DNA of 61,395 nucleotides from a virus. The notes under the pieces were generated by a model. It was given only the letters and a program-made list of their open reading frames with translations. It was not told the origin of the DNA and ran no database searches. Shown here in pieces: positions 33,001-58,831 of the stretch. Positions within the stretch are counted from its first letter, which is position 1; each line of letters starts with the position of its first letter. Both the position numbers and the translations under genes were made by a program. The stretch spans positions 1 through 61,395 of IMG/VR virus record IMGVR_UViG_3300050821_005455. One strand, given 5' to 3'.

Positions 33001-36000
33001 AAAGGCCTCTCTGCAGTGTTTGAGAACGATGCAGAGTATACCCGGACGATGAACGACGTCTACCGCGGAGCGACCGATCGCAAGTGGCTGAATGATTACG
33101 CCGCCCAGCACAATATCGATGCGCGCACTCGCTCCGGTAGGCAACTGCTTGCCGATGAGTATGCGGCGCACCTCGCCGAGAACGTGGACAAAGATCCCTC
33201 GGTCTGGCAGAAGATCGTCGACGGAGTGCGCGCGGGCTTGCGCAAGATGGGCGTCGTCCGGGATTGGAACGACAACGATATCCGGGCGCTCGTCCGTCGC
33301 GCGCAGAGTGCTCTCGTCCAGCACGATCCCGACGCAGCGGCCGCGTTCAAGGACAAAGGAATCCGGTACGCAGAGCAGGATGAGGGCGCGCCTAAGGTCC
33401 CCGACGACCACCCCCTTGCTGTGGCGCACAAGCTCGGCAAGACGATGGAGGATCAAGCGAACTACAATCCGGGCTTCGTGCGGTCCCGGCTCGATTATCT
33501 CGAGAAGAAAGGCGTCTCGCAGCCAGATAACGGCCTCCAGTTCCTGGGCTTGCGGAATCTCAAAGACATGAACGTCGCAGCGAGGATGCCGGATGTTGAG
33601 AAGTTCATCCGCACGCACGATCAGATGACCGGCCGCCGCGGCCAGATCATGGAGGAGCGCGCGGCGACCACTCGCGATTGGAGCCGATGGATCTCGAAGA
33701 ACAAAGAGCAAGGAAAGAACCTCGGCGAGCTGATGCACTCATCGACGCTTGCCGGGGTAGATCCATCGAAGCCGTTCAAGGAGCGTTGGCCGGGCTCGGC
33801 CGATGTCACGCAGCAGGCTGCAGACAAGATGCGCAAGACCTACTACGACAAGGCTTCAAAGGTCTACAACGCACTGGATCCAAAGGGCAAGGAGCTCTTC
33901 AACAAAGTCCGCGATGATTATTCGCAGCACCGTCAGCAAGTCTTCGATGCGCTTGAGCGAAGGATCAACGAGTCCGCCGCAGCGGACACAACAAAGAAGT
34001 CCCTCGTGACGGCCTTGCGTCAGAAATTCGAGTCTGGGCGGGTCCAAGCTCCCTACTTCCCATTGCAACGCTTCGGAGATCATTGGGGCGCCGCCAAGGA
34101 CGCGGACGGCAACACCGTCTCATTCAGTCGGTTCGAGACCTCGGGCGAGAAGAAGGCGTGGCTCGCCGAGATGAAGAACGCCGGCTACGACGTCAAAGGC
34201 GGCGAGCGCATGGATTCGAAGTCCATGATGGAGCAGATCAATCCGGACTTCGTCAAGAAAGTAACGCAGCTCGCGAAAGAGGCGGATCCTTCGGGAGAGC
34301 TAGCCGACAGCATTTGGCAAGAATATCTTCGCGCAATGCCGGAGATGTCGATGCGCAAGCATTTCATCCACCGGCAAGGCCGGCTCGGATACTCGATGGA
34401 CGCGATGCGCGCCTATTCCTACAACAGCTTCCATGGGAGCCATCAGCTCGCCCGGCTTGAATATGGCAACAGGCTCGACAACCACATCGAGCAGATCAAG
34501 CAGCAAGCGCAGGCGCTGAATGATGCCGACCCGTCGAGTGCAGATGCCAAGTGGGCGAACGCCACGGCTCGAGAGATGCAGCGGCGCTACGACTGGATCA
34601 AGAACCCGCGAGCCTCTTCATGGGCAAGCGCGCTTACGAAGTTCGGCTTCGGCTGGTATCTGGGCGCCGCGCCCGCCACCGCGTTCCGCATCTTCAGCCA
34701 GAACCCGATGATTGCCTCCCCGGTGCTCGCGAGCTATCACGGGCAGATTGGAGCCACTAAGGAGCTCTCAAGAGCATCGGCGCAGTGGGCGCTGTCCCGC
34801 GGCGGTCTCGGCGACACGCTCCGGGGCGATGAGCGCAAAGCCTTCGATACGGCGCGGGACATGGGTGTCTTCTCCTCGACCGCGACTCAGGATCTTGCCA
34901 GCTCCTCGGCAGGCGGAAACATCACTGGGTGGAGGGCCGCCGTGTACCGAGAAATGGGCCGGATGTTCAACGCAATGGAGCACCACAATCGCCAGACGAC
35001 GTACCTTGCGGCGTACCGGCTCGGCAAGCAGCAAGGGATGGACCATGATACTGCAGTCGAGCACGCCACCGATCGGACCTGGGACTCTCACTTCGATTAC
35101 ACGAACGCCAACAGGCCGCGCGTGCTCCAGAATGATTTCGCCAAGGTCGCGTTCCTCTTCAAGCAGTATTCCTGGGGCATTACCTACCGGTTGGCGCGCG
35201 ATGCGCGTGATATGCTCAACAACGATCCCTCGATGACGGATGCCGATCGCTCGATCGCAAGGAAGACGTTCGCCGGGATGCTGTCCCGCCAGATGATTTG
35301 GGGCGGCATGACCGGGCTTCCGCTATATTGGGCAGCGCGGGCTGGCATCAATGCGATGCTGGGAGATAAGGACCAACCGTACGACGTCGACGCCGCACTC
35401 CATAACCATCTCGAGCAGTCACTCGGGCACTGGGCCGCCGACTCGATCATGACCGGCCCGATGGGGGCGACGACTGGCGCCTCTCTCGCTTCCGGCGCCT
35501 CCTATAATGATCTCTGGTACCGGCCGCCGGCGATGGATGAGAACGCCAGTGGCACCTGGTCGGATCTTACCGGGCAATTCATGGGCGCGATCCCCCAGAT
35601 AGGCGCGCAGTTCGCGCAGGGCGCGCAGATGATCCACGACGGGAACACGGAGCGCGGGTTCGAGCACTTCCTGCCTCCGGCGCTCTCCGGCGTCGCCAAG
35701 GCCATCCGATACGCCAAGCAAGGCGTCACTAATCTTTCCGGCGAGTCGGTGATGAAGCCCGAGGAACTTAACAGTTACGATCTTGCTCTCCAAGCGCTCG
35801 GCATGACACCCCAGAAGGTGGCTGACCGGTATGCCCAGAACACAACTTTGAAGAATATCTCGAAAGAAATAATGGCGCGAAAAACGTTTCTGACCAACAG
35901 CTTAGAGCGCGCGGCGTCGATGGACGACGACAAAGAGGTGGCAGCGCTACAGGCGCAGATCGAGCACTTCAACAACGAGAATCCAGGCGTTGCCATCGGC

Positions 36001-36138
36001 GGGAAGGGACTGGTAAGCTCTTTCCGCAATCACTTCCGGAACCAGGCCGAAGCGGTGAATGGCGTACGCTTGCCGCCGGGGTTGGGAAATTTGCGGGACA
36101 CGTACGGCGGGAATCCTTCAGAGGAAGATCAGCAATGA
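30034..36138 (+). CDS. Giant polyvalent ejected protein
   Basis: 2,034 residues. Two copies of a short motif, GNAWLDSFG (7-15) and GNSWLDQFG (85-93), lie in a Pro-rich N-terminus. A pyrophosphatase-like segment surrounds residues 668-700 (DYGEFTGHTGADGDNVD; D686, D688, D691). A zinc-protease-like HEMTH is at 985-989. PLQRFG at 1343-1348 is the core of the PLxRFG domain of large polyvalent phage proteins. The long helical C-terminus (1540-2034) has hydrophobic stretches. I infer a virion protein injected with DNA that carries several enzymatic activities. No RNA polymerase motifs were found. Confidence 0.8.
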   Translation: MADQSTGNAWLDSFGPDTPPPGQPSNPPSASSQSAPPNLPPGAHDVEEVPTGNQAQVDRWKKTGKGPDGKPHPAMVLDTQAPTTGNSWLDQFGAESPPEPPPPAPPTPPPGLWDRAKAAAGEAYQGAVDATSRGMDQFHQADLSAGSKLHEPISGEDGLFTRFAKNYVQSRDSANQQMQEAGNFEANSGAGAVDPRNVAAFAAKASLALLNEGFSMTGIPAAITTLMSQPTQQLLDAGADALNKSGMVKQGAAGEKGFGITTGDVTQAAVSGGDLLDQVYQNIVPIGPHMLREGETVQHAAQAAEPVAPPGTLAGRRARFDIQENPETMMEHAQAAAMKTVEAAGGDKLSQVVAATDVNATMGAHYHAGEYEGHVATRHAQVAEEAEAEAAQAAEEQRNNAFEQFQASDAGKAAAGKTPDDIWAEHEGEQQAAKETDFGKALNQKGEQEIERGETLVAGAEKGGATEPGPTIGEALPEEIVKALRSLQERRATEAPESTIPKEVAARIKAATPEGEDFKPLLPGARGEEPPASVKASPLAARRAAAEAPPKVSPEDAAMAGAKEVQAARDAAKQFPEALKGPAPEPEIVLAEQPKPVKTPTAEQSEPVKPATLADKRMQAIKAAAEKRQMAAPTPEMKAESPEPVVGATKIAGEPVAIQVPRGQVRNGGRKLEADYGEFTGHTGADGDNVDVLIGQHPSDKHFIVDHLDSDGVFEQHKVLSNFSNKLEAMRAYRAQYPDNPQPHVSEINSTQLKGWLNAPERMRDGPFDVTGTARASAHAQGETAGIKGRARFREAPTEVNGSGESSASLEAIRRNNLETAEGRTRHQIDPDGNAMPLTGVDAVDAKAPKGHIIVQGNGEGGHKILDRGGLSQLHANGLLNRARATGGLEQHPGTFRDHVAADNARARPVSRLEAQRTLSPFLDKVGRKNVEVHQDVSTLPDNLKRDIVAGNHSPRGVYDPNTDTVHIIAGAHDSHADVLKTAVHEMTHKGLSAVFENDAEYTRTMNDVYRGATDRKWLNDYAAQHNIDARTRSGRQLLADEYAAHLAENVDKDPSVWQKIVDGVRAGLRKMGVVRDWNDNDIRALVRRAQSALVQHDPDAAAAFKDKGIRYAEQDEGAPKVPDDHPLAVAHKLGKTMEDQANYNPGFVRSRLDYLEKKGVSQPDNGLQFLGLRNLKDMNVAARMPDVEKFIRTHDQMTGRRGQIMEERAATTRDWSRWISKNKEQGKNLGELMHSSTLAGVDPSKPFKERWPGSADVTQQAADKMRKTYYDKASKVYNALDPKGKELFNKVRDDYSQHRQQVFDALERRINESAAADTTKKSLVTALRQKFESGRVQAPYFPLQRFGDHWGAAKDADGNTVSFSRFETSGEKKAWLAEMKNAGYDVKGGERMDSKSMMEQINPDFVKKVTQLAKEADPSGELADSIWQEYLRAMPEMSMRKHFIHRQGRLGYSMDAMRAYSYNSFHGSHQLARLEYGNRLDNHIEQIKQQAQALNDADPSSADAKWANATAREMQRRYDWIKNPRASSWASALTKFGFGWYLGAAPATAFRIFSQNPMIASPVLASYHGQIGATKELSRASAQWALSRGGLGDTLRGDERKAFDTARDMGVFSSTATQDLASSSAGGNITGWRAAVYREMGRMFNAMEHHNRQTTYLAAYRLGKQQGMDHDTAVEHATDRTWDSHFDYTNANRPRVLQNDFAKVAFLFKQYSWGITYRLARDARDMLNNDPSMTDADRSIARKTFAGMLSRQMIWGGMTGLPLYWAARAGINAMLGDKDQPYDVDAALHNHLEQSLGHWAADSIMTGPMGATTGASLASGASYNDLWYRPPAMDENASGTWSDLTGQFMGAIPQIGAQFAQGAQMIHDGNTERGFEHFLPPALSGVAKAIRYAKQGVTNLSGESVMKPEELNSYDLALQALGMTPQKVADRYAQNTTLKNISKEIMARKTFLTNSLERAASMDDDKEVAALQAQIEHFNNENPGVAIGGKGLVSSFRNHFRNQAEAVNGVRLPPGLGNLRDTYGGNPSEEDQQ

Positions 36139-38724: not shown

Positions 38725-40145
38725 AGAAATTCCTCCTTCTTCCGTTTAACAATAGACACCTGGGCGGCTAGAGCCTGTTCCCCCTTGAAATCGATTATCG
38801 ACAACGCATCATCATCCAAAGTGTTGACGCAATGCAAGTGGTGAATGCGGTAGGAGTCGTCCCCCTCGGCGCGGCGGTGTCCGCCTATCACTCGGCCGTT
38901 GAGCTGGTCGTAGAATTCTCTATTGGGTGAATACCCGAACCAACAAACATGCCGACAGCCGGCGACATAAAGATCATTGAGGCCGTGACCCGCTGAGGCG
39001 GGATGCATAATGCCGACACGAATTCGGCCAGTTCGCCAAGCGTCGAGAGATGCGTTGGTCCGTATGATTCCAACCCCCTGAACTCCGTTCCGCTCCAGCG
39101 AGGCTTGGATGCGCTCGACGTCATGAACAAAACCGTATCCGATAAGGACAGGCCGCGGGAGAGCTTCCAAAAGTTCCAGCAGAGCCTCAATCTTTGCATT
39201 GTGGACAGCATGCCAATCCCTCTTCTCATCGTAGACCGCACCGTTGGACATCTGCAGTAGTTTGCCCCACAGGACGCCGGCGTTGACCGCGGTGATGGTT
39301 TCGCCTCCAATGTCGATGACGCTCTCGCGCGCCATCTTCGAATAGAGCTTCTGCTCTTTGTCGCTGAGCGACACCTTGATGATGTTGCGCGGCACTTTGG
39401 GGCGCGTGTCGCGCATCACGAAGGTCACGTCGGCGATCAGTGCGTCGATTTTCTCCGCCGATCCAGCCCGAAGCTCGTACGACGGAACGCCATCGAGAAC
39501 GCTCTTGCTATAAAATTTTTCCAGATACTGATTTTCACTCGTACTCAAACGTCCACCGCCGTCAACCAGAAAATACTGGGACCAGAGATCCCGGTACCCG
39601 TTTGGCATGAGCGAGCCGGTAAGCAGGTAGCATCGAGAGAAGAGGCGCCGTAGCCGTCGTATAGACTTGAACCGGTGCGACGTCTGAGACTTGAAGCTCT
39701 GCGACTCGTCGAGAATGACGGTGTCCCACTTCCACTTACGGTACTGTGTCCGGATCGGTTTGCCCTTGTCATCTGTACCGGCGATCCGGATGAACTGCTC
39801 TTCGAGCCAGCAGAGGTTGTCTCGGGAGATGACCCAGATGTCTGCCTCATCGCAATTAAGCGCTTCAAGACGCTGGGAGGGACTCCCCACGATGCGTCGT
39901 ACACGGAGACCGGAAAGGTGTTCCCACTCCTTGACTTCCGTGTTCCAGACTCGGTCGGCGATGAGTCGGGTTCCGACGACGAGCGTTCGGTGAGCGTCAA
40001 AGGATTGAAGGAGCTCGAGAATTGCAGTGCAGGCGACGACCGTTTTGCCAACCCCCACGTCACACCATAGGACCCCGGATAAATTACGTTTGACGAATCG
40101 GACGGCTTCTTGCTGTTCATTGGTTAGATCGAAGTAGGTTTTCAC
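38667..40145 (-). CDS. SNF2-type DEAD-family helicase
   Basis: 492 residues, GTG start. Motif I WCDVGVGKT (27-35), motif II DESQ (146-149), motif III LTGSLMPN, and a C-terminal domain ending in the motif VI-like FYDQLNGRVIGGHRR. Belongs to the phage SF2 helicase group that sits with VRR-NUC nucleases and family A polymerases. Probably acts in replication fork restart or recombination. Confidence 0.85.
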   Translation of the reverse strand: MKTYFDLTNEQQEAVRFVKRNLSGVLWCDVGVGKTVVACTAILELLQSFDAHRTLVVGTRLIADRVWNTEVKEWEHLSGLRVRRIVGSPSQRLEALNCDEADIWVISRDNLCWLEEQFIRIAGTDDKGKPIRTQYRKWKWDTVILDESQSFKSQTSHRFKSIRRLRRLFSRCYLLTGSLMPNGYRDLWSQYFLVDGGGRLSTSENQYLEKFYSKSVLDGVPSYELRAGSAEKIDALIADVTFVMRDTRPKVPRNIIKVSLSDKEQKLYSKMARESVIDIGGETITAVNAGVLWGKLLQMSNGAVYDEKRDWHAVHNAKIEALLELLEALPRPVLIGYGFVHDVERIQASLERNGVQGVGIIRTNASLDAWRTGRIRVGIMHPASAGHGLNDLYVAGCRHVCWFGYSPNREFYDQLNGRVIGGHRRAEGDDSYRIHHLHCVNTLDDDALSIIDFKGEQALAAQVSIVKRKKEEFLCGNQSRRPVASLRTAALL

Positions 40146-40437
40146 GGTCGTGTAAAATGGCGCGGAAATCTTCTATGGAATCAAGCCAGAGGACATCGAG
40201 CCCCGCGGCCCGCATGGCGTTGATCTCGTCCCACTGGAGCTTCGTTGGTTCGCAGAGCTGGCGCTTGAACTCGATCCAGAAGATGTAGCCGCCCTTGGCG
40301 AACCACCGGTCCGGTGCTGAGCGACGCCCGGCGTGCTTGAACTTTCGAGTGAGCCAATCGGCGCGCTTAGCGAGCTTGATCGCTGCGTCTTCAAGATCGG
40401 TCTCCAGCTCGAAGATTTGGTCGCCGGGCATCCACAT
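40117..40437 (-). CDS. VRR-NUC nuclease
   Basis: 106 residues, the usual length of a stand-alone VRR-NUC domain. The core SAPDRWFAKGGYIFWIEFKR carries the PD-(D/E)xK residues D43, E56 and K58, followed by a conserved Gln. It likely cleaves branched or flap DNA and works with the SNF2 helicase whose start it overlaps. Confidence 0.85.
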   Translation of the reverse strand: MWMPGDQIFELETDLEDAAIKLAKRADWLTRKFKHAGRRSAPDRWFAKGGYIFWIEFKRQLCEPTKLQWDEINAMRAAGLDVLWLDSIEDFRAILHDRENLLRSNQ

Positions 40438-40443
40438 CTAGCT

Positions 40444-40839
40444 TCACGCGGCAATTTCCCTAAGGAATACGAACGCCTCAGGGAATGATTTCAAGATCTT
40501 ATGGGAATGTCCAATCAGCCACGGGCTCGGCCGATCGTCCGGGCACACTGTAATGACTTGTCGACTGAACGGAGGGCTGTACCCGGCGTAAACCTCCATG
40601 CCCGTGCCCCAGCTCGGCCGCGCCGCGTTGACTAAGAGTATGTGTGCCTGCCTGATGTCCTCCATATCGCCTGCGATGATCTGGAACACGCTCTCAGCTT
40701 CCTTGCCGCGGTAATCTCGGCGCATAGGGTCCAAGAAGTTGTAAAGCCCGGCCAGTTCCTTCTTCGCCGCCTCACGCCAATCCATCGCCTCGGCATCCGA
40801 CAACTTATTGATCCCGCCGCACAGATAAATGGTTTTCAT
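40444..40839 (-). CDS. Nucleoside 2-deoxyribosyltransferase-like protein
   Basis: 131 residues. YLCGGINKLS at the start, FLDPMRRDYRG in the middle and ILLVNAARPSWGTGMEVYAG match the Rossmann-like fold of nucleoside 2-deoxyribosyltransferases, with the catalytic-glutamate region in GTGMEVYAG. Enzymes of this family swap or hydrolyse the base of deoxynucleosides or their monophosphates. ATGA overlap with the DpdA-like gene upstream links the two. Confidence 0.75.
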   Translation of the reverse strand: MKTIYLCGGINKLSDAEAMDWREAAKKELAGLYNFLDPMRRDYRGKEAESVFQIIAGDMEDIRQAHILLVNAARPSWGTGMEVYAGYSPPFSRQVITVCPDDRPSPWLIGHSHKILKSFPEAFVFLREIAA

Positions 40840-41579
40840 CCTAATAACTCCATGTTTTGGTAATCGTCGATCACTTCTCTATTCCATCGGTTGGCGCTGG
40901 CATGCCGCTCAGTGCGCTCCATTATAATCAAAGCGCGCATCGCTTTCGAGTGCGGCAAATAAGTCCCCTTCCAGGCCTTGTCTATGCCCACATTGCGGGC
41001 GACTTTGCAACTGTCTCCAGACGCCAGAGGTAGTTTGCTGAATACTCCGGGATTGAGCATTCTGAGGCCGTGCAATTTGGTCAGCGGGCGGCCTTCCTTG
41101 TCAGTCACAACATCCATAGCCTGGGCCATGCGAGCCCACCACTTTTTACCCCCGATTCTGGCAAACTCGCCGCTGGAGCCAAGCGCTATACGAGGCCAAA
41201 CGAGGAGCCTCTCCAATCGGGCGAGCGACTCGTGCATGTGCCAAACCGGTACGGATTGCGCCGGGGGCAGGAACCACCAGTCGGCGATGAGTGCGTCATT
41301 CTCCTTCTCGGAGCCGTCTATCTTGTCAGGTACGACGCACCACTCTACGGCCGGGTGCCGAAGCCATGTCTCGCACCAGGCTCCGTAACCTTTGAAATCA
41401 TGCGGTTTGCCCTGCCGCCACGCCGAGAAAGCTCCATTGTCTAATACTACCGACTGACAAATCTCAGCAGCGAGCTCTATCTGCTCCGGATGCTCGAAGC
41501 TAACCATGGCGTGCCGCGCAGCGAAACTCTTCACCATGTCCGCGGCGGGGGTTAGCGGCGTGCCGTGGTAGTGAATCAT
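40836..41579 (-). CDS. TGT/DpdA-like base-exchange enzyme
   Basis: 247 residues. VVLDNGAFSAWRQG (44-57) and CVVPDKIDGS (81-90) resemble the active-site strands of the DpdA branch of tRNA-guanine transglycosylases, which insert 7-deazaguanines into DNA; the later GLRMLNPGVFSKLPLASGDS and the WPRIALGSSGEFARI region fit the barrel. No queuosine-pathway synthesis genes are seen, so a deazaguanine would have to come from the host. The assignment to DNA rather than RNA modification is inference. Confidence 0.6.
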   Translation of the reverse strand: MIHYHGTPLTPAADMVKSFAARHAMVSFEHPEQIELAAEICQSVVLDNGAFSAWRQGKPHDFKGYGAWCETWLRHPAVEWCVVPDKIDGSEKENDALIADWWFLPPAQSVPVWHMHESLARLERLLVWPRIALGSSGEFARIGGKKWWARMAQAMDVVTDKEGRPLTKLHGLRMLNPGVFSKLPLASGDSCKVARNVGIDKAWKGTYLPHSKAMRALIIMERTERHASANRWNREVIDDYQNMELLG

Positions 41580-41722
41580 TTGAACGGAGCGAGTCGATGA
41601 TTGATTGCTGAGAGCGCGTCGAGCGCTGCTTGCGAGGCCCTACGATGTGAGCGTTCGAAGAGCGCCGCGCGGCTCTGCTCGTAGACCCACTTAAGCAACT
41701 CACGCATCTCGGTCTCGGTCAT
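41576..41722 (-). CDS. 48-residue helical protein
   Basis: ATG overlaps the DNA polymerase stop and its own stop overlaps the next ATG, so it is locked between the two. Sequence is one Arg/Ala/Glu helix (ETEMRELLKWVYEQSRAALF). Perfectly packed position argues it is real; function unknown. Confidence 0.65.
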   Translation of the reverse strand: MTETEMRELLKWVYEQSRAALFERSHRRASQAALDALSAINHRLAPFK

Positions 41723-43821
41723 TTTCTAAACCGCGGACCGCGTTGTATCTCCACGGCAAGCGGCAGCCCCTCAGCCCACGCAGGCGCCTCGGCGCACATC
41801 AATCGTCTAATCTCGTCGTCAGAGCCAAAGCCAAGAGGTACTTCCATAATAGGCTGATCATGAACAGAGCCAATAAGAGGATGCCCAGCACCACGCAGCT
41901 TGAACTTAGCAGCAACCAAAATATCTCGGCAGCCTGCTTGCGTCTCATTCTCGCAGAGCTTGCCGCCATACGTCGACGTGCGACCCCAGATCCGCTTGAC
42001 GGTGTCCATGCCATAGTAGTAGAGGGTTTCATCTCGAATCTCCGGACGATAGTACCAGAGCTTGCGCCCACTCGGCAGCCGAAGCAAGAGGTACTTGCCT
42101 TCGACCTTAAACATGATCCGCTTGTTCGCGACGGCGCGGATCTCGCCGGGGTTCGCCACCGCATTAAGCGAGGCTTCCTTAAGCTGCTTCCAGCCCAAGA
42201 CGATCTTGGGGTGCGCCCGGCGCCAAAGCCGCTTCAATCCCTCGCACGTGACCCAGAGCTTCTCGTCTAGATCGTAAGTCCGTCCGGTCTCGCAGGCGTA
42301 GGCCCAGGCATCCTGCGCCTCGAGCACGATATCGTCGGGGAGAGTGTCGTAGGCGGCAAGGAGCCTCTTGAGGTCGACGCGGTACGTCGCGCAGCCTTTG
42401 ATAAAGGCGGCAACTCCGCCCTCATATCCCAGGTAGAGGTCCATGCATTTTCCAAGCAGATACTCAATGGTGTCCTTCTTGACGGTTTCCACCGGGACGC
42501 CAAAAGATCGAGCGTAGACAACGGCATAGTTGTTTGGACCGATGCCTGCGTCATAGTCTCGAAATACCTTGAGCTTCCACTCCTCACCGAACATCCATGC
42601 ATTCCAGCGGGCCTCCACTCCGGCGTAGTCGGGGAACACCAACTCCTTGCCCTCATCCGCGATCAGGCAGCTGCGAATGCAGGAGGCCATGACCTTCATC
42701 GGGTCAACGCCTGCGAAGAGCGCGCGCAGGTATCCCAAGTCCCAAGTCTGCGCTGCGATGAGCGCCGTTTCTGGATCTTTGATCACAGGACGGAAAAGAT
42801 TTTGAAGCTGGACGATCACGGAGGACCACCGGCCCGTGCCCGCGCCGTAGAACATGAAGAGGTGGCGGAGCCGATTGCCTTTACCGACGGCAAGCCGCAT
42901 CGCGGGGTACTTCGCCACGGCCTTCATGCCGTAGGTCGAATAGATTTTGAGGACTTCCTTCACTTCCTCGGGGATATTCAGCAGCAAGACTTTGCGGACC
43001 GTGTCCGCCTGCAGATTCTCAAGCTCGGGGAATCCGTGGCTGCGGATCCACTGGGCGAGTTGCGCGTGTTGAGATGGTTTGACCCCGGTCTTCCTGACGC
43101 ACAAGGAGAGCAGTTCCCGCTTGTACTCGGCTATCAGAATCTCCATCGAATCAACGGCTTCGAGATCGACTCGCCATCCCCTATCGTTGAAATCCTGATC
43201 CATGTGGTAAACCGCAAGCTCCGCCTTGTCGAGAGGCGGAACAATAGCCCCGACAGAACGCTCTGCGCGAACGTCGGAGGCGTTATATGCGACCATCTCT
43301 AAAAAGCGAGATCGTTCCTCTAAAATACTAGGACGAGATCCGTCTTTGCGGGGCTTGCAAAGATATCGAAGGGCATTCACGCCACGCATATCTTTCTTGA
43401 ACGGCGCGTTGATAGCGTTGGCAGCGTCTTCTAAGGCGCCAGGGAGCCCATGCACCCGCATCTGAGCCATGACGCATCGCGTTTGCTCAATGGAGATCTT
43501 GGGAAAGTTGTAGCGCTGCCCTGCTGGGCCATTGAGCGTAAGTCTCTCGAAGGCCGCGTTATAAGCGAATACCAAGCCGCCAGATTCGATGTGCTGGCGC
43601 AAATCGACTGGCACCTCGGAACCAAAATAAAGCGCGCCGTCGACGTTCGGCGGCTTGAAAGCTGCATCTGCTGATGGAGTCCAAACGTTGACCGGGCCGC
43701 CATCGAAAGCGTAACCGACGCAAAGAATATCGGTGGATTCATCCTCCGAGTACCTGGACATGCCCGATTTTTTCAAATCACAGCGAGAAAAAGACTCGAT
43801 GTCGATGTGCAGATCAGACAT
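41719..43821 (-). CDS. Family A DNA polymerase with 3'-5' exonuclease
   Basis: 700 residues from the ATG at 43821; the longer frame overlaps the HNH gene. Exonuclease: D7/E9, N88xxF91 and YNASD (179-183). Polymerase: motif A DYAGVEAR (D398, E403), motif B K458...GYEGG, and motif C VHDQ (653-656). The usual motif C is VHDE, so the last acidic residue is replaced by Gln. Belongs to the phage type without a 5'-3' exonuclease and should replicate the genome with the SSB and primase-helicase nearby. Confidence 0.95.
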   Translation of the reverse strand: MSDLHIDIESFSRCDLKKSGMSRYSEDESTDILCVGYAFDGGPVNVWTPSADAAFKPPNVDGALYFGSEVPVDLRQHIESGGLVFAYNAAFERLTLNGPAGQRYNFPKISIEQTRCVMAQMRVHGLPGALEDAANAINAPFKKDMRGVNALRYLCKPRKDGSRPSILEERSRFLEMVAYNASDVRAERSVGAIVPPLDKAELAVYHMDQDFNDRGWRVDLEAVDSMEILIAEYKRELLSLCVRKTGVKPSQHAQLAQWIRSHGFPELENLQADTVRKVLLLNIPEEVKEVLKIYSTYGMKAVAKYPAMRLAVGKGNRLRHLFMFYGAGTGRWSSVIVQLQNLFRPVIKDPETALIAAQTWDLGYLRALFAGVDPMKVMASCIRSCLIADEGKELVFPDYAGVEARWNAWMFGEEWKLKVFRDYDAGIGPNNYAVVYARSFGVPVETVKKDTIEYLLGKCMDLYLGYEGGVAAFIKGCATYRVDLKRLLAAYDTLPDDIVLEAQDAWAYACETGRTYDLDEKLWVTCEGLKRLWRRAHPKIVLGWKQLKEASLNAVANPGEIRAVANKRIMFKVEGKYLLLRLPSGRKLWYYRPEIRDETLYYYGMDTVKRIWGRTSTYGGKLCENETQAGCRDILVAAKFKLRGAGHPLIGSVHDQPIMEVPLGFGSDDEIRRLMCAEAPAWAEGLPLAVEIQRGPRFRK

Positions 43822-44311
43822 GGTTCCAGCTGACGCCGCAGCAGGCAGCGGAAATCGTCGAGATGTGCACTCCATACCGGGTTGCGAGCGCCTTTAAGGG
43901 GACGTTTCGCGCTCGCATCTTACGGATGTACCGGATGCTTTGCGTTTTAAGGACTGAGTTGCCGACGCGGGCTCCGCGCAGCCTTGTGCCGTGCCGAATC
44001 TTGTCCTGCTCGTTGCTCGCGTGGAGCGCCCAGCGAAGATTGCCGAGTCGATTGTCGGCGGCCTTCCCGTTGCGATGCGCTCCCTCGTGCTTGTCAGTAG
44101 GAGGCGACCCTTTGAACGCGGCAAGCACCAACCGATGCACGAGCACGCAAACTGCATTGCGTTTCGGTGAGCAAAGCCAAGTCTGCAAATACTTGTTACC
44201 GTGTCGATGCTGAGCCTTAATGTGTCCGGTGCGCGGGTTGCGCACACGGCCCAAATCGCTGACCTCGTAAAGCCCCTCCCATCCCGGCACGGCTTTCCAG
44301 CGCTCTTTCAT
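43814..44311 (-). CDS. HNH homing endonuclease (NUMOD4 type)
   Basis: 165 residues. NUMOD4 start (WKAVPGWEGLYEVSDLGRVR), HNH centre (VHRLVLAAFKG... EGAHRNGKAADNRLGNLRW) and a C-terminal helix-turn-helix (SIRYIRKMRARNVPLKALAT). A site-specific nuclease inserted just upstream of, and overlapping by 8 nt, the polymerase gene, a usual place for free-standing homing enzymes. Confidence 0.9.
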   Translation of the reverse strand: MKERWKAVPGWEGLYEVSDLGRVRNPRTGHIKAQHRHGNKYLQTWLCSPKRNAVCVLVHRLVLAAFKGSPPTDKHEGAHRNGKAADNRLGNLRWALHASNEQDKIRHGTRLRGARVGNSVLKTQSIRYIRKMRARNVPLKALATRYGVHISTISAACCGVSWNHV

Positions 44312-44442
44312 CCAACGCGCACCAAGAATCCGTAGCTCTCCAACTGCTGCCGATTCCAGTCCAGCAACTCGGGCTTACAGAGGACCGTCTTCCAGCGCTC
44401 TAGCTTGACGCTCCACACGCGAAGTCTGATTCGGCCGCTCAT
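44308..44442 (-). CDS. 44-residue basic protein
   Basis: ATG overlaps the stop of the cupin gene (TGATG) and its stop overlaps the HNH start (ATGA). Sequence SGRIRLRVWSVKLERWKTVL..., basic and Trp-rich, no recognised family. Supported by packing rather than homology. Confidence 0.55.
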   Translation of the reverse strand: MSGRIRLRVWSVKLERWKTVLCKPELLDWNRQQLESYGFLVRVG

Positions 44443-44897
44443 CAGCCGCACCCTCGGCCGACTTCAGAAACGCCATCGGCGTAATAATCTCGCGAATTGT
44501 TGTACTCGTCGGCGTCCCGCCAGCCGAACGAGCACCAATACCCCCACCGTCGGCGCGCCGGCCAGCGCAGCCACAAGGTCCATACCGGGCCGTCGATAAG
44601 CTCGACCCGGTGCGGAGTCTCGGCCTTACGGAAACAGGGGAAAAACGGCCATCGAACGGCAAGCGTGTACACGCGGTCTCCGTGCTCGTAATCGCATAGA
44701 GGGTGGAAGAGTACCTCACGAAATCGACCGGTCAAGAGAATCGACACGTTGTCGGCCTTATGGTCATGCAGCGCGCGGTCATCGTCAGATCGGTGCCACC
44801 GGTGCAGCGATAGCTGCCACCCGCGCCACGTGAGCAAATGCCAACGAGTAGTCTGCGGGTTGTTCCGCGGGCCAATAATCAGATCCGGTTTACGCAT
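44442..44897 (-). CDS. Cupin-fold protein
   Basis: 151 residues. WHLLTWRGWQLSLHRWHRSD, then LHDHKADNVSILLTGRFRE is the HxH...G cupin core, and TPHRVELIDGPVW supplies the second His motif. Small cupins with this wording occur in many phages with unknown substrate. A structured non-coding stretch precedes its start. Confidence 0.75.
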   Translation of the reverse strand: MRKPDLIIGPRNNPQTTRWHLLTWRGWQLSLHRWHRSDDDRALHDHKADNVSILLTGRFREVLFHPLCDYEHGDRVYTLAVRWPFFPCFRKAETPHRVELIDGPVWTLWLRWPARRRWGYWCSFGWRDADEYNNSRDYYADGVSEVGRGCG

Positions 44898-45014
44898 ATA
44901 GGGGCCGGGCGCCGGCGGTACCTCTGGCTCCTAATTAAGGCTGGTAGCCACAGGAGCCTGCCTTCCGGCGCCCGATAACCTCTTAGAGTGGCCGAACACT
45001 AAACACGATAACCG
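44898..45014 (-). promoter_or_regulatory. Nested inverted repeats, probable structured RNA element
   Basis: 117 bp without a gene. GGGCGCCGG (44907-44915) pairs with CCGGCGCCC (44965-44973); inside it GGCTCCT (44926-44932) pairs with AGGAGCC (44952-44958), and inside that GGCT/AGCC around 44939-44949 forms a small hairpin. The set would fold into one extended stem with internal loops in the leader of the cupin gene. No T-run follows, so a simple terminator is unlikely. Confidence 0.55.
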
Positions 45015-45665
45015 TTAATCGAAACCCAAATCCGACGAGTCGCCGCCTTCGTCTTCCAGCGCTTGGAACTCGTCCTCTGCGGCAATGTCGCCCTGACCGA
45101 AGGCCGGGTACTTAGGCTCGCCCTCAACGAACTGCACACCGCGCAGGTTCACTCCGAGGCGCTTTGCGTACTGGTTGTCCTGCCCCCAGATCGTGATCGA
45201 AGTGATACCGAGGCAGCCCGAGTACGGGAACTGCTTGTCGCCCGGAACGACCTCTTTGCCGTTGCGGCCAGCGACCGCGGGCCGAAGCATCGAGTTGTGC
45301 GCAGGCACCACGAACATGCCGTCGTAGCCGTCGTATTCCTTCGAGGAACCGTCATAGAACGCGATCTTGATCCCGTCGTCCTTGGTCTTCGGATCGGGCT
45401 GCTCGACGCCAGGGATGAACTGGGCGGCGATGCGGCGCAGCGCGAGCGGCACTAAGCCGTAAGACAGCTTCCCGATATCCGCCGCCGTTTTGACAACGAG
45501 CTTGATGCTCTCAAGCTGTAGCTTGTCTGCCGGGTCGAGGAGCGTCGTCGCTTCCCAACGCGGATCGCCTTTGCCGTCGAAGGCCTTGGGCTCGATCAGC
45601 CGGAGGAAGCTCTCGCGTCCCCTGATTCGAATCGGCTCGGATGTGAAAATCTCTTTCTTCGCCAT
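45015..45665 (-). CDS. DUF2815 single-stranded DNA-binding protein
   Basis: 216 residues. Start RIRGRESFLRLIEPKAF and the end AEDEFQALEDE...SSDLGFD, an acidic tail with terminal aromatic, match the DUF2815 SSB group that accompanies DUF2800 nucleases and family A polymerases. Binds ssDNA at the fork and recruits partners through its tail. AGGAGAC site. Confidence 0.85.
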   Translation of the reverse strand: MAKKEIFTSEPIRIRGRESFLRLIEPKAFDGKGDPRWEATTLLDPADKLQLESIKLVVKTAADIGKLSYGLVPLALRRIAAQFIPGVEQPDPKTKDDGIKIAFYDGSSKEYDGYDGMFVVPAHNSMLRPAVAGRNGKEVVPGDKQFPYSGCLGITSITIWGQDNQYAKRLGVNLRGVQFVEGEPKYPAFGQGDIAAEDEFQALEDEGGDSSDLGFD

Positions 45666-45701
45666 GCTAGTCGTCTCCTGTAAAGTAATGCAGCAAGCCT
45701 T

Positions 45702-46040
45702 CTACTCGTCTTGGTGCTCGTCACCAACCAGATCGCCAGTGTTTGGAATGACCTGCCGACAGCGATCGTCATACAGACAGATCATACGGAAGTCTTTGCG
45801 GTCAGTCACGTCCAACCGCTGCTTTAAGTATTGGAGACACCAGTCGCTGATGAGCTGAGCCTGCGCCGGATCGATGGCTCGCGCGGTGACGATCTTGACC
45901 TTGATGCCCTTGCGGAGCCAACGCTTCACGCGCTCGAGCATCGGCAAGATCGGCTCGCCGAGGACGCCCGCTTGGAAGTTGCCGGGCTCGTAGTGCGCCA
46001 AAGTTGCGTCAAAGTCGACGCCGATCCAACCCTTACTCAT
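45702..46040 (-). CDS. HAD-like phosphatase
   Basis: 112 residues; the ATG at 46040 has GGAGG upstream, the longer frame does not. DxDxT motif I in VDFDATL (D9, D11), motif II-like IVTARA, and a C-terminal DDR. A small HAD hydrolase probably acting on a nucleotide or sugar phosphate. It sits between the SSB and the DUF2800 gene. Confidence 0.75.
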   Translation of the reverse strand: MSKGWIGVDFDATLAHYEPGNFQAGVLGEPILPMLERVKRWLRKGIKVKIVTARAIDPAQAQLISDWCLQYLKQRLDVTDRKDFRMICLYDDRCRQVIPNTGDLVGDEHQDE

Positions 46041-47292
46041 CTGTGTCCTCCAAATTATCGAACTCAAGGGCCGCAGTCGTGGTGATAGCGGGCTTAGGAT
46101 CCGTCGGCGGCGCGAGACGCGGTTTGCCCTTGGGCTTCTTCACCAGCAGATCCTTCCCCTCGGGGAACATCACTTCGGCAAACTTCTTCTTGCCCATCGC
46201 CTTCTCAGCCTTCGAAGGACTCATAAGCTTCTTCTCGTAGGGCTCGACGCCAGCATCGACTAGCACTTCGTAGATGACGTCCTCATCTGCGGCGTAGACG
46301 CGATTCGATCGGCCCTCGACTAGTTTCCAGCCGCCTAGATCCTCGCCGGCAATCAGCCGAGCAACCGAATCCTTTTCGAACTCTTTGATCCATGCCTTCA
46401 GCATCGGCAAGAGCGGTAGGATTGCCTTGCGGCGCTCTGGGGATAGCTCCGGGAGTTCGACCTTGGCCGCGACTACGGAGTTCTCAAGCTCCTGCGCATC
46501 GAGGTTCTCGAAGGCCCCGTCGCCGAGCACCAGCTGAATCGCGCTGTTCTGGCGCACCGCGCACTTCTTGCGGATGCGGCAGAATTGGCACCACGTCCCG
46601 GCCTCGAAATCGGCGCCCAAGAGCACCTTCTCGGCCCAGCCGGGGATGGTTTTCTTAGCCCACTCCAGCAACTGCGATGTGTGAATCGTCCACTCATCCT
46701 TGTGCCCGAGGCGTGGCTGGGAGATGCGTAGTATGAAGTGCTGGATCTCGTGGCTCCAGTCATAGTCTTCATAGACTCCGAGAGCCTGCAGCAAGAGCTG
46801 AGTGTTCCATTTGGCGAACTCCTGAACTCCCTTGCCGTGCTTAAAATCGGTGATCGTGCACCAGTGATCGGCGATGCGCGCGTCATCCAGGGTGCCGAAG
46901 GTCTTGCCGAATTGATCAATGACTCCGCGCGGCATCCACTTCGAGTAGTCGATGCGCTGTTCGACAAGCGTGAGTTCGGAGGGCGACTCGGCGCACCAAT
47001 CGACGAACTCGTCCACGCTGTCAGTGAATTCTTCGTTGATCTTGAATTTGTACTTGTCGACGACAAAGACGTTTCCCATCCAGTCGGTGGATGGGCGGCC
47101 GGTGTTGCGCACTAACTCGGAGAGGTAGTGCGCTGCGGTGCCTTCAGCCGCGTACTCGCTCTCGTCGTCCGGCGTGTCCTTAGACGCATGGACAGAGCCC
47201 GGACAGTGCATTGTCCGCTTGGAGGATGAAGGGCCCAGGGGCGAATGCTCGCCCCGGGGAACCACTACCACTACTTCATTTGGCGGGGACAT
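46033..47292 (-). CDS. DUF2800 RecB-like nuclease
   Basis: 419 residues. CPGSV, the EYAAEGTAAHYL helix, RIADHWCTITDFKHGKG (PD-(D/E)xK core) and the Cys-rich TWCQFCRIRKKCAVR, which could ligate an iron-sulfur cluster, fit the DUF2800 family. A processing nuclease, usually next to DUF2815 SSBs, with a role in recombination-dependent replication. Confidence 0.85.
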   Translation of the reverse strand: MSPPNEVVVVVPRGEHSPLGPSSSKRTMHCPGSVHASKDTPDDESEYAAEGTAAHYLSELVRNTGRPSTDWMGNVFVVDKYKFKINEEFTDSVDEFVDWCAESPSELTLVEQRIDYSKWMPRGVIDQFGKTFGTLDDARIADHWCTITDFKHGKGVQEFAKWNTQLLLQALGVYEDYDWSHEIQHFILRISQPRLGHKDEWTIHTSQLLEWAKKTIPGWAEKVLLGADFEAGTWCQFCRIRKKCAVRQNSAIQLVLGDGAFENLDAQELENSVVAAKVELPELSPERRKAILPLLPMLKAWIKEFEKDSVARLIAGEDLGGWKLVEGRSNRVYAADEDVIYEVLVDAGVEPYEKKLMSPSKAEKAMGKKKFAEVMFPEGKDLLVKKPKGKPRLAPPTDPKPAITTTAALEFDNLEDTDE

Positions 47293-47938
47293 AGCTCGCG
47301 CAAGCGTCGATCACGGCTTGGTACTTCGCTTCGTCCAGCGTCGAGATCGTCGGGTTGCCGTCGCGCGTGAACTTCTTGAGGACTCCCAGCGCGTGGTCCT
47401 TGTGACCGTGCTTGGTCTGGCACTCCGTCAGTGCCTTGCGAAGCTGCTCGATCGTGGCCTTCGGAGTCTCCTTAGCCGGCGCGGCATTCTCGCCGAACAA
47501 GTCATCGTCAGAAGGGGATGCACTCTTCGTCGCAGTCTGGCCACTCGGGGCCTTCGTATCCTTTGCGGGGGAAGTGACCTCGGTCGCAGAGCCGAACAAC
47601 TCCGCTTCCGCAGCAGCCTGTGCAGAGGCTGCCGTCGTAGTCGCGGCCGACGTGCTCGAAGCATTCCTTGCACGAGGCTTCTTGTCTTTTGGGGGCACTT
47701 GGCCCTCCGCTGCGGCAGAAGCTGCGTCCGGAGGTGCTAGTGGCGCACTTGAAGAACGCTGCCCAGGGATTCCTGGGATCTCCTCAATCGCCCGCAAGCC
47801 GACAGGCAGCGAAATTGAATACACGTTGCCGTACGCGCCGCCTTCGTGCAAATAGATGTCCGCCCGAGTGACCTGCGCATTGGGAAACTTCGCAACGAAG
47901 TCTGCCAATTGCTCCAATACTTTCTTCGATTCCATCAT
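47276..47938 (-). CDS. Hypothetical protein with Ala/Ser/Thr-rich linker
   Basis: 220 residues. Folded N-terminus (1-60) and C-terminus (160-220, KATIEQLRKALTECQTKHGH...), joined by a long disordered Ala/Ser/Pro linker with acidic patches. Located within the replication block and overlapping the DUF2800 start; may be a binding partner of the nuclease or SSB. No recognised family. Confidence 0.65.
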   Translation of the reverse strand: MMESKKVLEQLADFVAKFPNAQVTRADIYLHEGGAYGNVYSISLPVGLRAIEEIPGIPGQRSSSAPLAPPDAASAAAEGQVPPKDKKPRARNASSTSAATTTAASAQAAAEAELFGSATEVTSPAKDTKAPSGQTATKSASPSDDDLFGENAAPAKETPKATIEQLRKALTECQTKHGHKDHALGVLKKFTRDGNPTISTLDEAKYQAVIDACASYVPAK

Positions 47939-47944
47939 TCTCTC

Positions 47945-48208
47945 CTATGTTTTAACAACCGAATATTTTCCCAACCTAGTAGGTCGAGTGATGCATGCCT
48001 TCGGGATGAAATAAACGTTCCCAACATCCCCTCCTGATAAATCCATGCGCGCGGAGATCTTAACGCCGAGCTTATTCTCATCCAAGAGCCAACCGACACT
48101 TTTGATACTTGACGGCTTTGTCGCGTAGTAATCAACTTCGCACCAACTATGCGAACTCCAAGCATCATTCCATTCTACGATGACGAGCACTCGCTTATTC
48201 TTGCTCAT
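47945..48208 (-). CDS. Hypothetical 87-residue protein
   Basis: Mixed alpha/beta, Trp/Tyr-rich with two Cys. Start overlaps the end of the dATP/dGTP diphosphohydrolase-like gene (ATGA). No recognised family. Confidence 0.65.
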   Translation of the reverse strand: MSKNKRVLVIVEWNDAWSSHSWCEVDYYATKPSSIKSVGWLLDENKLGVKISARMDLSGGDVGNVYFIPKACITRPTRLGKYSVVKT

Positions 48209-48561
48209 TTGCGTTGCACCTTTGGTGGTCTATCGTCATTGAACATCGGTGAGTCGATCACATCAAGGATCATTCCCAGGCAGGCCGCGCCGTGTTTGAC
48301 ATGGTGCACCTTCGAATCAGGAGCAAGGTCGTCCTCATCGAGGCGGTCCCACCAGTCTTTGAGATGCCGGAGCACGGCTGCGTAATAGACACTCGCCGAG
48401 ATTTTGTTCTCGCGCCAATTGTACGGCCCGTACTTCTCTGCGCCATCAGCGAATGCCTCAGCGGCCCCCGCGGTAAGCGCCGGCGGACAAAGGTGCATTG
48501 GGCACTTCTTTGCGCCCTCCGCGGTCTTGGGATTGTTGTCAGGATAGCTCACGGATGCCAT
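48205..48561 (-). CDS. dATP/dGTP diphosphohydrolase N-terminal-domain protein (DUF5664-like)
   Basis: 118 residues starting MASVSYPDNNPKTAEGAKK; the upstream extension overlaps the neighbouring gene. LTAGAAEAFADGAEKYGPYNWR and YYAAVLRHLKDWWD are the hallmark helices of the MazG-like family sometimes named dATP/dGTP diphosphohydrolase, N-terminal. Would remove selected dNTPs. Its location near the DpdA-like and deoxyribosyltransferase-like genes points to nucleotide-pool control. Confidence 0.75.
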   Translation of the reverse strand: MASVSYPDNNPKTAEGAKKCPMHLCPPALTAGAAEAFADGAEKYGPYNWRENKISASVYYAAVLRHLKDWWDRLDEDDLAPDSKVHHVKHGAACLGMILDVIDSPMFNDDRPPKVQRK

Positions 48562-50156
48562 CTCCCCTTGATATAAATCACGAGTTGACGCTTCCCGTTG
48601 GGGTGGATGATTCCGTCGACGTGGAGCCAATCGCTCGGAGAGCCCTTGGCATACTTGAGATCGAGACGCGAACCTGTGCCAACGGACCAACAGCCTTCAT
48701 CGATACCCGGACCGTGCACGTGTCCGATGAAAGAGCGCTCGCCGATCCGGCGCAGATTTCGCCTAGAACCTCGTGCACCTTTTGGGCCCTTATCCCCGTG
48801 CATTCCACACTGAACGCCTTTGAATTTGAGGGACTCTCCGAGAGCCAGGCACCGAACGCGAGGAATACGAGCCTTCTCGACCCAATAGGGAAAGGGTGCC
48901 GGGTATGCAGCCCCACCGGGATCCATCCGTGCCCCGCGAACCATCGCAAGCGCAGTTTCCAGATAAAATTCGGCATTGCGCGGGTCAGCGCGCCAATCAA
49001 CGTCGCTGACCCAACGCCTGAGCATGTCGTCATGGTTGGAATAGACGATCCAGGTTTTTGCCCATTCTGGATTGCGCTGCCGGATGAAAGCGAGGTCTTC
49101 ATTTACTTCTTGGCCTACAGCATCCAGCCCGGCATGGTGCTTCGCGTACCGGATAAAGGGGTCGTGTCGGTCCCAATGGTTCTCTGCTTGAGCATCGTGC
49201 GTATCATGCCACACGATGTTCTTTGGTTTCAACACATGAATGATGCCGGCGCCCAAATCCCAGCGCGCTTTGTCTACGGTTTCATCGCGCACAGCGCGGT
49301 GCACGTCGCCCAAGATATGCGCTTCGGGACGCAATTGACGCGTGATTCCATCGGCGCGGAAGTGCACGACGCCATCTCGGGGCGTAATGTCGTAGAAAGA
49401 GCCCGATTTGTCAGCGACTAGGTGCCGCAGCCAGAAGAGATCGCCTTCGGTCTCGACGATCACGGCTCCTAGCGTGTGATGGAACTCGCCGGTTTTGCCA
49501 ACTTTCGAAAGCGAGTAATTCGTGTCTTGGGTGCAGGCGCCGGTCGTCGTCATGAGCTTCGCCATCTTGCCCGCGGGCGTCGCAACGGTCGTCATCTGCA
49601 ACTTCGGATGCGGCACGATCGAGGAGAGCGCCCCGGTCATGCCTTCGAGGCCCGAGAGCGGCAGAGTCGCAGTAGGCTGGATGGGCACGTCGCCTAGCAC
49701 TTCGATATTGGCATTGATCTTATAGCGCGCATTCCAGAGGTACGGTGTTAGCTCCTTCGCCCAGGAATATATGCCCTCTTCTTTGGCTTTCTTCTCTTCC
49801 TTGCGTGAAGTTGGATTGCGATAGATATATGCGCCCACGAGTAACTCTGCGTTGTAGAAGACCACAGCGCGCTGCAGCGCTGCCCAGAATCCAGGATGGA
49901 CTCGAGTCAGATTTTGCGCGGCCGTGCAGATGTAAGTAGTTTTCTTGAGTTCGCGCTTAAATACTGGCGGCGGCCCTACGGGCTTGTTGCTGCGGTCATG
50001 TGCGATCTTGCGCTCTGGAGCCTGCGTTTTATGGCAGTAGACTTGAGTCCCGTTTACCTTACTACCGCAAGCCCAGCGCTGTTTGCCGGCGTATGAACCG
50101 TCCTTGTACATAGGCTTGCCGCATTTGGGGCACGGATAGCGCTTAGTCTTCAGCAT
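48549..50156 (-). CDS. Metallophosphoesterase, T5 A1-like
   Basis: 535 residues from ATG at 50156 (ATGs at 50189 and further up are possible). Zinc-ribbon start (CPKCGKP, then C, C), a long middle domain, then a calcineurin-type set: WHDTHDAQAENHWDRHD, YSNHDDMLRRW and GHVHGPG. Similar proteins exist in T5-like phages, where the A1 protein is needed for host DNA breakdown; whether this one does the same is inference. Last in a three-gene run with the small genes at 50143 and 50367. Confidence 0.75.
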   Translation of the reverse strand: MLKTKRYPCPKCGKPMYKDGSYAGKQRWACGSKVNGTQVYCHKTQAPERKIAHDRSNKPVGPPPVFKRELKKTTYICTAAQNLTRVHPGFWAALQRAVVFYNAELLVGAYIYRNPTSRKEEKKAKEEGIYSWAKELTPYLWNARYKINANIEVLGDVPIQPTATLPLSGLEGMTGALSSIVPHPKLQMTTVATPAGKMAKLMTTTGACTQDTNYSLSKVGKTGEFHHTLGAVIVETEGDLFWLRHLVADKSGSFYDITPRDGVVHFRADGITRQLRPEAHILGDVHRAVRDETVDKARWDLGAGIIHVLKPKNIVWHDTHDAQAENHWDRHDPFIRYAKHHAGLDAVGQEVNEDLAFIRQRNPEWAKTWIVYSNHDDMLRRWVSDVDWRADPRNAEFYLETALAMVRGARMDPGGAAYPAPFPYWVEKARIPRVRCLALGESLKFKGVQCGMHGDKGPKGARGSRRNLRRIGERSFIGHVHGPGIDEGCWSVGTGSRLDLKYAKGSPSDWLHVDGIIHPNGKRQLVIYIKGRWHP

Positions 50157-53852: not shown

Positions 53853-53976
53853 GCTTCTCGCCGTTGCGCTTCTTGCGCATGGCGCGGCGGGCGTGCTCTT
53901 GTTCCTCTCTAAATCGGCGCTCTTCTGCGTCGTCGACCCAATCGTCGGTGAGGGTGTCGTGCGGATCTTTAGCCAT
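53773..53976 (-). CDS. Hypothetical charged protein
   Basis: 67 residues starting MAKDPHDTLTDDW, a helix of alternating acidic and basic residues (EERRFREEQEHARRAMRKKR). Shares its 3' part with the next gene in another frame. The ATG lies inside the 3' end of the nucleotidyltransferase gene. Confidence 0.5.
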   Translation of the reverse strand: MAKDPHDTLTDDWVDDAEERRFREEQEHARRAMRKKRNGEKHAGLQERDGRDPSYIQRGNKHQRQKG

Positions 53977-54334
53977 GGGCCAAGAGAGTAGTAGAAAAGC
54001 CAGGCAATTGCGAGATGCGGACAATAGGTACTGTGGAGGGGAGCACACTTTGATCCCAGCCACGGATCAGCACATCCGGCCTAATACATTCAGCGAGCTT
54101 CTCATTGTCGCCGTTGAACGGGATAACTGCATCGACCCAGATGTTGGCCTCGACGCGCTCGATTCGTGTTAGAAGCACATCGTGCGGCCTATCGGCGCCT
54201 TTCAAGGCGCGCACAGAAGCGTCCGTGTTGACAGCCACGATGAGATATTGACACAGCCTTCCGGCTTCGCATAGGAAGTGCCAATGTCCTTTGTGAAACC
54301 TATCGAAGCAGCCTGTGGCAAGTCCGATTTTCAT
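53969..54334 (-). CDS. hldC-like: ADP-heptose-type nucleotidyltransferase (HldC/HldE C-domain-like)
   Basis: 121 residues. GCFDRFHKGHWHFL (HxGH, H14 and H17) and LIVAVNTDASVRALKGADRP closely follow the C-terminal domain of HldE, which joins ADP to heptose-1-phosphate to give ADP-D-glycero-D-manno-heptose. IRPDVLIRGWDQ completes the family end. The kinase half is a separate gene upstream, as in bacteria with separate hldA and hldC. Both belong to one operon with a small cupin. Confidence 0.85.
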   Translation of the reverse strand: MKIGLATGCFDRFHKGHWHFLCEAGRLCQYLIVAVNTDASVRALKGADRPHDVLLTRIERVEANIWVDAVIPFNGDNEKLAECIRPDVLIRGWDQSVLPSTVPIVRISQLPGFSTTLLAHG

Positions 54335-54447
54335 ATCTGATACGTCCAGTAGAGCCAGAGAAAGAATAGCGCGTAAATGATGAGCAGTACCATCATGCCG
54401 TTAACGGCCTTCATAAAGGAGAGCAGCGCGCTCTGCCGTTTGCTCAC
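54331..54447 (-). CDS. 38-residue single-pass membrane peptide
   Basis: GTG overlaps the cupin stop (GTGA) and its stop overlaps the nucleotidyltransferase start (ATGA). One hydrophobic segment (MMVLLIIYALFFLWLYW) preceded by a short basic head. Placed between two sugar-nucleotide genes. Function unknown. Confidence 0.6.
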   Translation of the reverse strand: MSKRQSALLSFMKAVNGMMVLLIIYALFFLWLYWTYQI

Positions 54448-56516: not shown

Positions 56517-56653
56517 TGCCGTCTCCTAAGTAGTCGCTCCAAAATAATCTGATAAACTGTCGCGGTTTTCCCCGTATAGTACGCGCTGCTCTGGTTCCTC
56601 ACTTCGTTATAGGCAAGAATTCCAGCGAGAACGCGACATTCGAATTCGCTCAT
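56507..56653 (-). CDS. 48-residue hypothetical protein
   Basis: MSEFECRVLAGILAYNEVR start with GGAAG six bases upstream; the longer frame is shadow. Helical, basic C-terminus. It overlaps the genes on both sides by a few bases. Confidence 0.55.
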   Translation of the reverse strand: MSEFECRVLAGILAYNEVRNQSSAYYTGKTATVYQIILERLLRRRQCI

Positions 56654-58765: not shown

Positions 58766-58784
58766 ATGCCCCGCACTATGCCCC

Positions 58785-58811: not shown

Positions 58812-58831
58812 CTCGAACAGTCTTCGCTGTT

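Follow-up and report, generated by a model that had tools for sequence, protein, structure and literature searches.

What does a phage do with an enzyme that exchanges bases in DNA when its genome holds no genes for making the base to be inserted? DpdA swaps guanines in DNA for 7-deazaguanines, and a 2023 study in NAR reportedly deals with DpdA3/DpdA4, DpdL, DpdM and DpdN. Here, we analyse the virus record IMGVR_UViG_3300050821_005455, a stretch of 61,395 nt read on one strand and called the window below, in which a dpdA-like gene overlaps a gene resembling those of nucleoside 2-deoxyribosyltransferases (NDTs; the gene is called ndt below). On the basis of homology, fold, conservation of catalytic residues, the absence of que genes from the record and recurrent linkage, we consider it fairly probable that this pair, at 40444-41579, is a 7-deazaguanine DNA-modification cassette that uses a base supplied by the host, and in which the partner of DpdA is a hydrolase that frees or recycles this base.

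Results

The pair is embedded in a run of genes on the minus strand that is headed by the DNA polymerase (Table 1), in the order polymerase, 48-codon gene, dpdA, ndt, endonuclease-like gene and helicase. A first-pass annotation of this DNA had placed the 48-codon gene and the polymerase beside the pair, and both are found there; the ATGA coupling that it described between dpdA and ndt also exists, but is one of three such overlaps, the others joining the polymerase to the 48-codon gene and the 48-codon gene to dpdA. The 48-aa product had no match in Pfam, PHROG or PADLOC, and the dpdA and ndt products had none in NCBIfam or PADLOC. The endonuclease-like gene behind ndt belongs to the replication module and is not counted here as part of the cassette. 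No annotated phage proved closely related to the window DNA from position 38000 to the end.

Table 1. Features of the polymerase-coupled gene run and the PF18909 gene in the window
Feature	Position	Strand	Evidence and remarks
DNA polymerase, family-A-like	41719-43875	-	phrog_17, E=1.3e-72; heads the coupled run
48-aa ORF between polymerase and dpdA	41576-41722	-	ATGA overlaps on both sides
DpdA-like protein (predicted DNA guanine transglycosylase) of 247 aa, a "singleton DpdA" of the 7-11/MED16 type	40836-41579	-	phrog_887, E=3.8e-59
NDT/DNPH1-like nucleotide N-hydrolase (predicted), 131 aa	40444-40839	-	PF05014; ATGA overlap with dpdA
Endonuclease-like gene, directly downstream of the NDT-like gene	40117-40437	-	phrog_93, E=7.5e-17
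PF18909 dATP/dGTP diphosphohydrolase N-domain-like gene	48205-48690	-	E=6.6e-22

Elsewhere in the window, a block of sugar-type genes on the minus strand (53969-55669 and 56650-61207) comprises consecutive genes for a cytidylyltransferase-like protein (PF01467), a cupin and a PfkB-type kinase, followed by genes for a methyltransferase-domain protein and a family-2 glycosyltransferase. On the plus strand, within the structural region, positions 30034-36138 encode a large polyvalent protein of 2034 aa with LPD39 and inorganic-pyrophosphatase-like (PF18823) domains.

The product of the dpdA-like gene had been called DpdA/TGT-like from the motifs VVLDNGAFSAW and VVPDKIDG. Both motifs are present, and a PHROG profile search matches the protein, far above chance, to phrog_887 ("queuine tRNA-ribosyltransferase"), which also contains the DpdA proteins of CAjan, Salmonella phage 7-11 and Edwardsiella phage ZHS; there was no significant Pfam match. 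Identity is 37% to the DpdA of 7-11 and 38% to that of Pantoea phage MED16. Comparison of the window DpdA family with DpdA1 proteins (CAjan, 9g and others) by hhalign gave 99.6% (E=1.2e-23), against 0.3% for the DpdA and NDT profiles compared as a negative control. The profile comparison pairs D47, D85, H170 and D189 with D63, D105, H187 and D206 of the CAjan enzyme; in an alignment of 73 sequences the first three are invariant and D189 is nearly so, and by alignment offset CAjan H187 corresponds to the conserved His196 of 9g. The AF2 model (pLDDT 92) shows a TGT-type TIM-barrel fold, for which VIA-align put TGTs and Cap10 at the top (Z 14.6-15.9 over 221-229 residues), after Foldseek had ranked other TIM barrels first and a TGT at rank 23; plain phmmer against the PDB gave chance matches only. 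The TGT zinc motif CxCxxC...H is absent from the window protein and from all 73 relatives aligned. PF23859 and NF041059, which describe bacterial and mycobacteriophage-type DpdA, were not matched by the window protein, and the accepted DpdA of CAjan likewise scores below the NF041059 cut-off. As judged from sequence, the 247-aa protein is a DpdA rather than a tRNA TGT, and adds a new member to a group already known; the first-pass annotation had named clustering with a non-DpdA family as the outcome that would speak against DpdA, and the family in which the protein falls is the one that includes the enzymes of 7-11 and MED16.

About 109 annotated phage records carry the window DpdA family, and many of these are temperate enterobacterial or Vibrio phages; window-like dpdA genes are present, for example, in the temperate phages BTP1, SfI, SPN3UB and HK106, and are adjoined by accessory genes of the ead/ea22 type in BTP1 and in some Salmonella and Klebsiella phages. 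A 1719-base entry, OR850331.1 ("Staphylococcus phage SA 1298 Kay"), holds a DpdA that matches that of the window at 47%, as do those of Salmonella phages, and is perhaps a mislabelled or contaminated sequence.

Where would the base come from? The earlier claim that queuosine-precursor genes are absent is upheld: profile searches for the QueC, QueD/PTPS and YhhQ/Vut_1 families found no match in the 61-kb record while their controls matched, and tblastn with phage FolE, QueC, QueD, QueE and YhhQ gave nothing credible there. As the record thus offers no route to the base, it would have to be supplied by the queuosine pathway of the host or by salvage. A host-supplied base is also the published proposal for DpdA-only phages and for HRTV-29 (PMC8651126). 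A neighbour analysis of 81 DpdA loci (80 viral relatives and the window) found an adjacent Vut_1/YhhQ-type ORF in 21 and an adjacent QueE-type ORF in 13, which ties the DpdA family to 7-deazaguanine supply. We observed that phrog_4899 ("unknown function") matches Vut_1 (PF02592) and stands directly behind dpdA in numerous viral contigs (L049, L052, L062, L077 and others); it is likely to be a phage preQ0 transporter.

How much of the genome might be modified? LC-MS of Salmonella phage 7-11 DNA detected 50 dADG per million nt, or about 0.02% of G, and the DpdA-only phage Orion had no dADG (PMC6884629). For MED16 DNA, the LC-MS value is 354 dADG per million nt, or about 0.13% of G; the tested enzymes with G-containing sites still cut this DNA, the exceptions being enzymes that adenine methylation blocked, and dADG brought no appreciable protection against the enzymes used (PMC8306585). 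Because the two phages of this DpdA subfamily tested by LC-MS show traces only, the idea of an extensively modified genome is weakened and should not be assumed for the phage studied here.

The ndt product matches PF05014 (nucleoside 2-deoxyribosyltransferase) with E=6.5e-7 and 29.9 bits, the cut-off being 28.8. Its AF2 model (pLDDT 96) finds NDTs, DNPH1 and MilB as structural matches, and in a profile search against the PDB the best hits were Rcl/DNPH1 (E 5e-5 to 2e-4), with NDTs behind (0.02-0.03). Residues Y5, D58 and E82 align with the DNPH1 triad Y24/D80/E104; among 81 clusters of NDT-like proteins D58 and E82 are invariant and Y5 is kept in 79. S76, within the motif PSxG, aligns with DNPH1 S98 and is Ser in 74 of the 81 clusters, and S105 (Ser in 76/81), by its approximate spacing, may correspond to DNPH1 S128'. 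DNPH1 uses S98 to bind the 5'-phosphate, in a pocket not present in NDTs, and is a nucleotide pool sanitiser, the human enzyme acting on 5hmdUMP (PMC10603095). Since the DNPH1 triad and the phosphate serine are conserved and DNPH1 is the best profile relative, the protein is more likely to be a 5'-nucleotide N-hydrolase than a nucleoside transferase. The family is nearly confined to phages, with six loci in a scan of 84,980 species genomes with the NDT profile. Distant members occur in two archaeal viruses, Halorubrum tailed virus 29 (NC_062762) and PhiCh1 (NC_054954); HRTV-29 is reported to have a lone DpdA, and the NDTs of such viruses have been filed under pyrimidine metabolism (PMC8651126).

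Is the pairing peculiar to this phage? With the window NDT-like protein as query, only three matches were found in 50,697 phage records. Two are in Aminobacter phage Erebus and Edwardsiella phage ZHS, where ndt stands inside or beside a FolE/Que/DpdA cluster that adjoins the polymerase clamp; Rhizobium phage RHph_X3_2 has another family member between QueE and QueC. We then collected NDT-like loci from profile searches of IMG/VR together with phage and genome loci, giving 147 loci that fall into 81 clusters at 80% identity, and sorted neighbouring DpdA genes by HMM into class A (phrog_887 type), class B (PF23859 type) and class C (phrog_15826). A DpdA-type gene lies within 6 kb of ndt in 48 of the 81 clusters, with all three classes represented, a count to be read in the light of NDT profiles that were seeded partly with DpdA-linked members and so favour the DpdA-linked subfamily. 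In 38 clusters the two genes are immediate neighbours with the same orientation, about half in each order; in the window, dpdA comes first and ndt second on the minus strand. By comparison, none of 46 control loci, found with two other window genes, had a DpdA-type gene (positive controls matched), and the roughly 738 matches of three DpdA queries in the 50,697 phage records set a baseline expectation of about 1.5% of such records.

A 102-row tree of DpdA sequences requires the NDT label to have been gained or lost at least 15 times, at least six of these changes being forced by well-supported branches, and the pairing has therefore been made or lost repeatedly. Among the close relatives of the window DpdA (L002-L081), most lack an NDT-like gene alongside. 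Further gene families next to the pair reach at most 8 of the 48 clusters, with QueE (5), Vut (5) and QueC (4) among the top, and locus L094 has dpdA, a Vut-type gene and, between them, ndt as one overlapping run. Most pairs have no que genes nearby; full or partial preQ0 biosynthesis is also present in some NDT loci, and salvage seems unnecessary there. In 33 of the 81 clusters, some on contigs of 100-190 kb, no DpdA is in reach, which shows that the NDT-like enzyme also occurs in contexts other than that of DpdA; many of the contigs analysed are fragments. Among 27 NDT records initially without a nearby DpdA, searches with a 73-sequence profile of the window family, PF23859 and phrog_15826 found a DpdA-type gene in L105, L109, L120 and L141.

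Phrog_15826 shares the DNG/VPD/VQDG/H/DGT motifs, and its profile aligns to class A at 99.5%. This family, annotated as of "unknown function", is a TGT/DpdA-like subfamily that often adjoins ndt (L123, L134, L136, L139, L141 and others) and deserves a name of its own.

The coupling of dpdA and ndt in the window is more meaningful than the first-pass annotation could know, as it recurs in dozens of phages. A search of the open-access PMC literature found no description of the DpdA/NDT pairing. DpdA itself is known; the new part seems to be the recurrent partnership of DpdA with a DNPH1-like protein.

The first-pass annotation had also counted a diphosphohydrolase-like gene as part of the set. 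The PF18909 gene is present, 6.6 kb upstream of dpdA, and an overlap of its long ORF with the adjacent gene makes an internal start near 48555 probable; its membership of the set found no support, as none of 41 loci with viral homologues of the gene has a DpdA-type gene within 8 kb. A MazZ-like (PF18909) match together with a family-A-like polymerase could also bring to mind chemistry of the Z-genome (2-aminoadenine) type. Searches for PurZ (adenylosuccinate-synthetase family, PF00709) found no match in the record although all 14 controls matched, and we rejected this reading, which we regard as extremely improbable for this phage.

Discussion

How could the two enzymes work together? The DpdA-type protein would replace certain guanines of the phage DNA with a 7-deazaguanine, which may be preQ0 or a related base such as the preQ0 amide, drawn from the queuosine pathway of the host or obtained by salvage. 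Its partner, the 131-aa DNPH1/NDT-type N-hydrolase, would most likely split 7-deazaguanine nucleotides to the free base, and this step may either feed DpdA with the freed base or prevent modified nucleotides from entering the dNTP pool. That DNA is the substrate of DpdA, which base it inserts, that its partner acts on nucleotides rather than nucleosides, and that the partner serves salvage or sanitation are points that we infer. A base-exchange enzyme beside a hydrolase that yields a free base suggests either base supply by salvage or clean-up of modified nucleotides; supply is favoured by the pairs without any que gene nearby, and clean-up by those inside full preQ0 clusters.

How does the cassette compare with known systems? 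The singleton DpdA of 7-11 and MED16 (group 3, Hutinet et al, 2019) is of the same family with the same catalytic residues at 37-38% identity, and those phages, like the window phage, carry no preQ0 genes; the genome pieces of 7-11 and MED16 examined hold no NDT-like gene, whereas ndt is coupled to dpdA by ATGA in the window. DpdA1 of CAjan and 9g, which comes with a preQ0/G+ cluster, has a homologous transglycosylase core and a gene beside replication genes, as in the window. However, the window enzyme is shorter (247 versus 306-317 aa; 22-25% identity), and CAjan and 9g have FolE, QueD, QueE and QueC, which the window phage lacks. The 7-deazaguanine clusters of Erebus, ZHS and RHph_X3_2 have an NDT-like gene of the window family inside or beside them, but differ in their biosynthesis genes and DpdA1-type enzymes. 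The NDT-like protein in turn has the fold and Tyr/Asp/Glu triad in common with DNPH1/Rcl, MilB/BlsM and PF05014 NDTs, and the PSxG phosphate serine with DNPH1, yet is at most about 20% identical to these proteins and has the phage-specific motifs SPWL-YH and DPM-RDYRG.

Does the partner supply the base or merely remove it? The NDT-like enzyme might destroy 7-deaza-dGMP released from modified DNA, which would then be neither re-phosphorylated nor built in at random, comparable to what DNPH1 does with 5hmdUMP, while DpdA still modifies the phage DNA. DNPH1, which comes nearest in profile comparison among families of known function and has the same triad and phosphate serine, is such a sanitiser (PMC10603095), and phages with preQ0 synthesis of their own, which need no salvage, also carry NDT-like genes. 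Since the lack of que genes around most pairs agrees better with a supply role, and since the other genes that usually accompany these DpdAs are transporter or que genes, we find sanitation in place of salvage rather unlikely. A functional DpdA that leaves the genome modified at trace level, in a pair with little or no protective role or one active under particular host conditions, seems similarly doubtful to us. The values for 7-11, MED16 and Orion and the lack of protection of MED16 by dADG from the enzymes tested agree with it (PMC6884629; PMC8306585). On the other hand, the examined pieces of 7-11 and MED16 did not show the NDT-like gene, so theirs is not the same case, and the repeated gain of partners suggests selection.

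The target of the DpdA-like protein is a separate matter. TGT acts on tRNA and the CBASS protein Cap10 on protein, and the window protein might by analogy modify host tRNA or protein instead of phage DNA, with the NDT-like enzyme serving tRNA-base turnover. In fold, the protein matches Cap10 (9ntn, Z 15.9) just as well as it matches TGTs, and the DNA modification levels published for the subfamily are very low (PMC6884629; PMC8306585). Against this stand the CxCxxC zinc motif of TGTs, missing in the 73 relatives, the sequence profile, which matches phage DpdA, the detection of dADG in DNA of two subfamily phages (same reports), and the DNA polymerase linkage seen both in the window and in CAjan, 9g, Erebus, ZHS and RHph_X3_2, and we consider a tRNA or protein target quite improbable.

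Returning to the cassette of DpdA and hydrolase with a host-supplied base, what might it mean for phage biology? Tentatively, and with less confidence than in the cassette itself, we suggest that phages may have repeatedly assembled a "scavenge and insert" module, in which a phage-specific nucleotide N-hydrolase would free a 7-deazaguanine from breakdown nucleotides of host tRNA or DNA for DpdA to insert into DNA. If so, a phage without preQ0 biosynthesis could still modify its genome. The base released by the hydrolase and then inserted by DpdA may also be one that has not yet been described. The NDT-like family, which recurs beside three different subfamilies of DpdA type, offers a concrete candidate for the step of supply or clean-up that is missing, and such a role would give a functional name to a phage family that is now annotated as "unknown" or as an NDT of pyrimidine metabolism.
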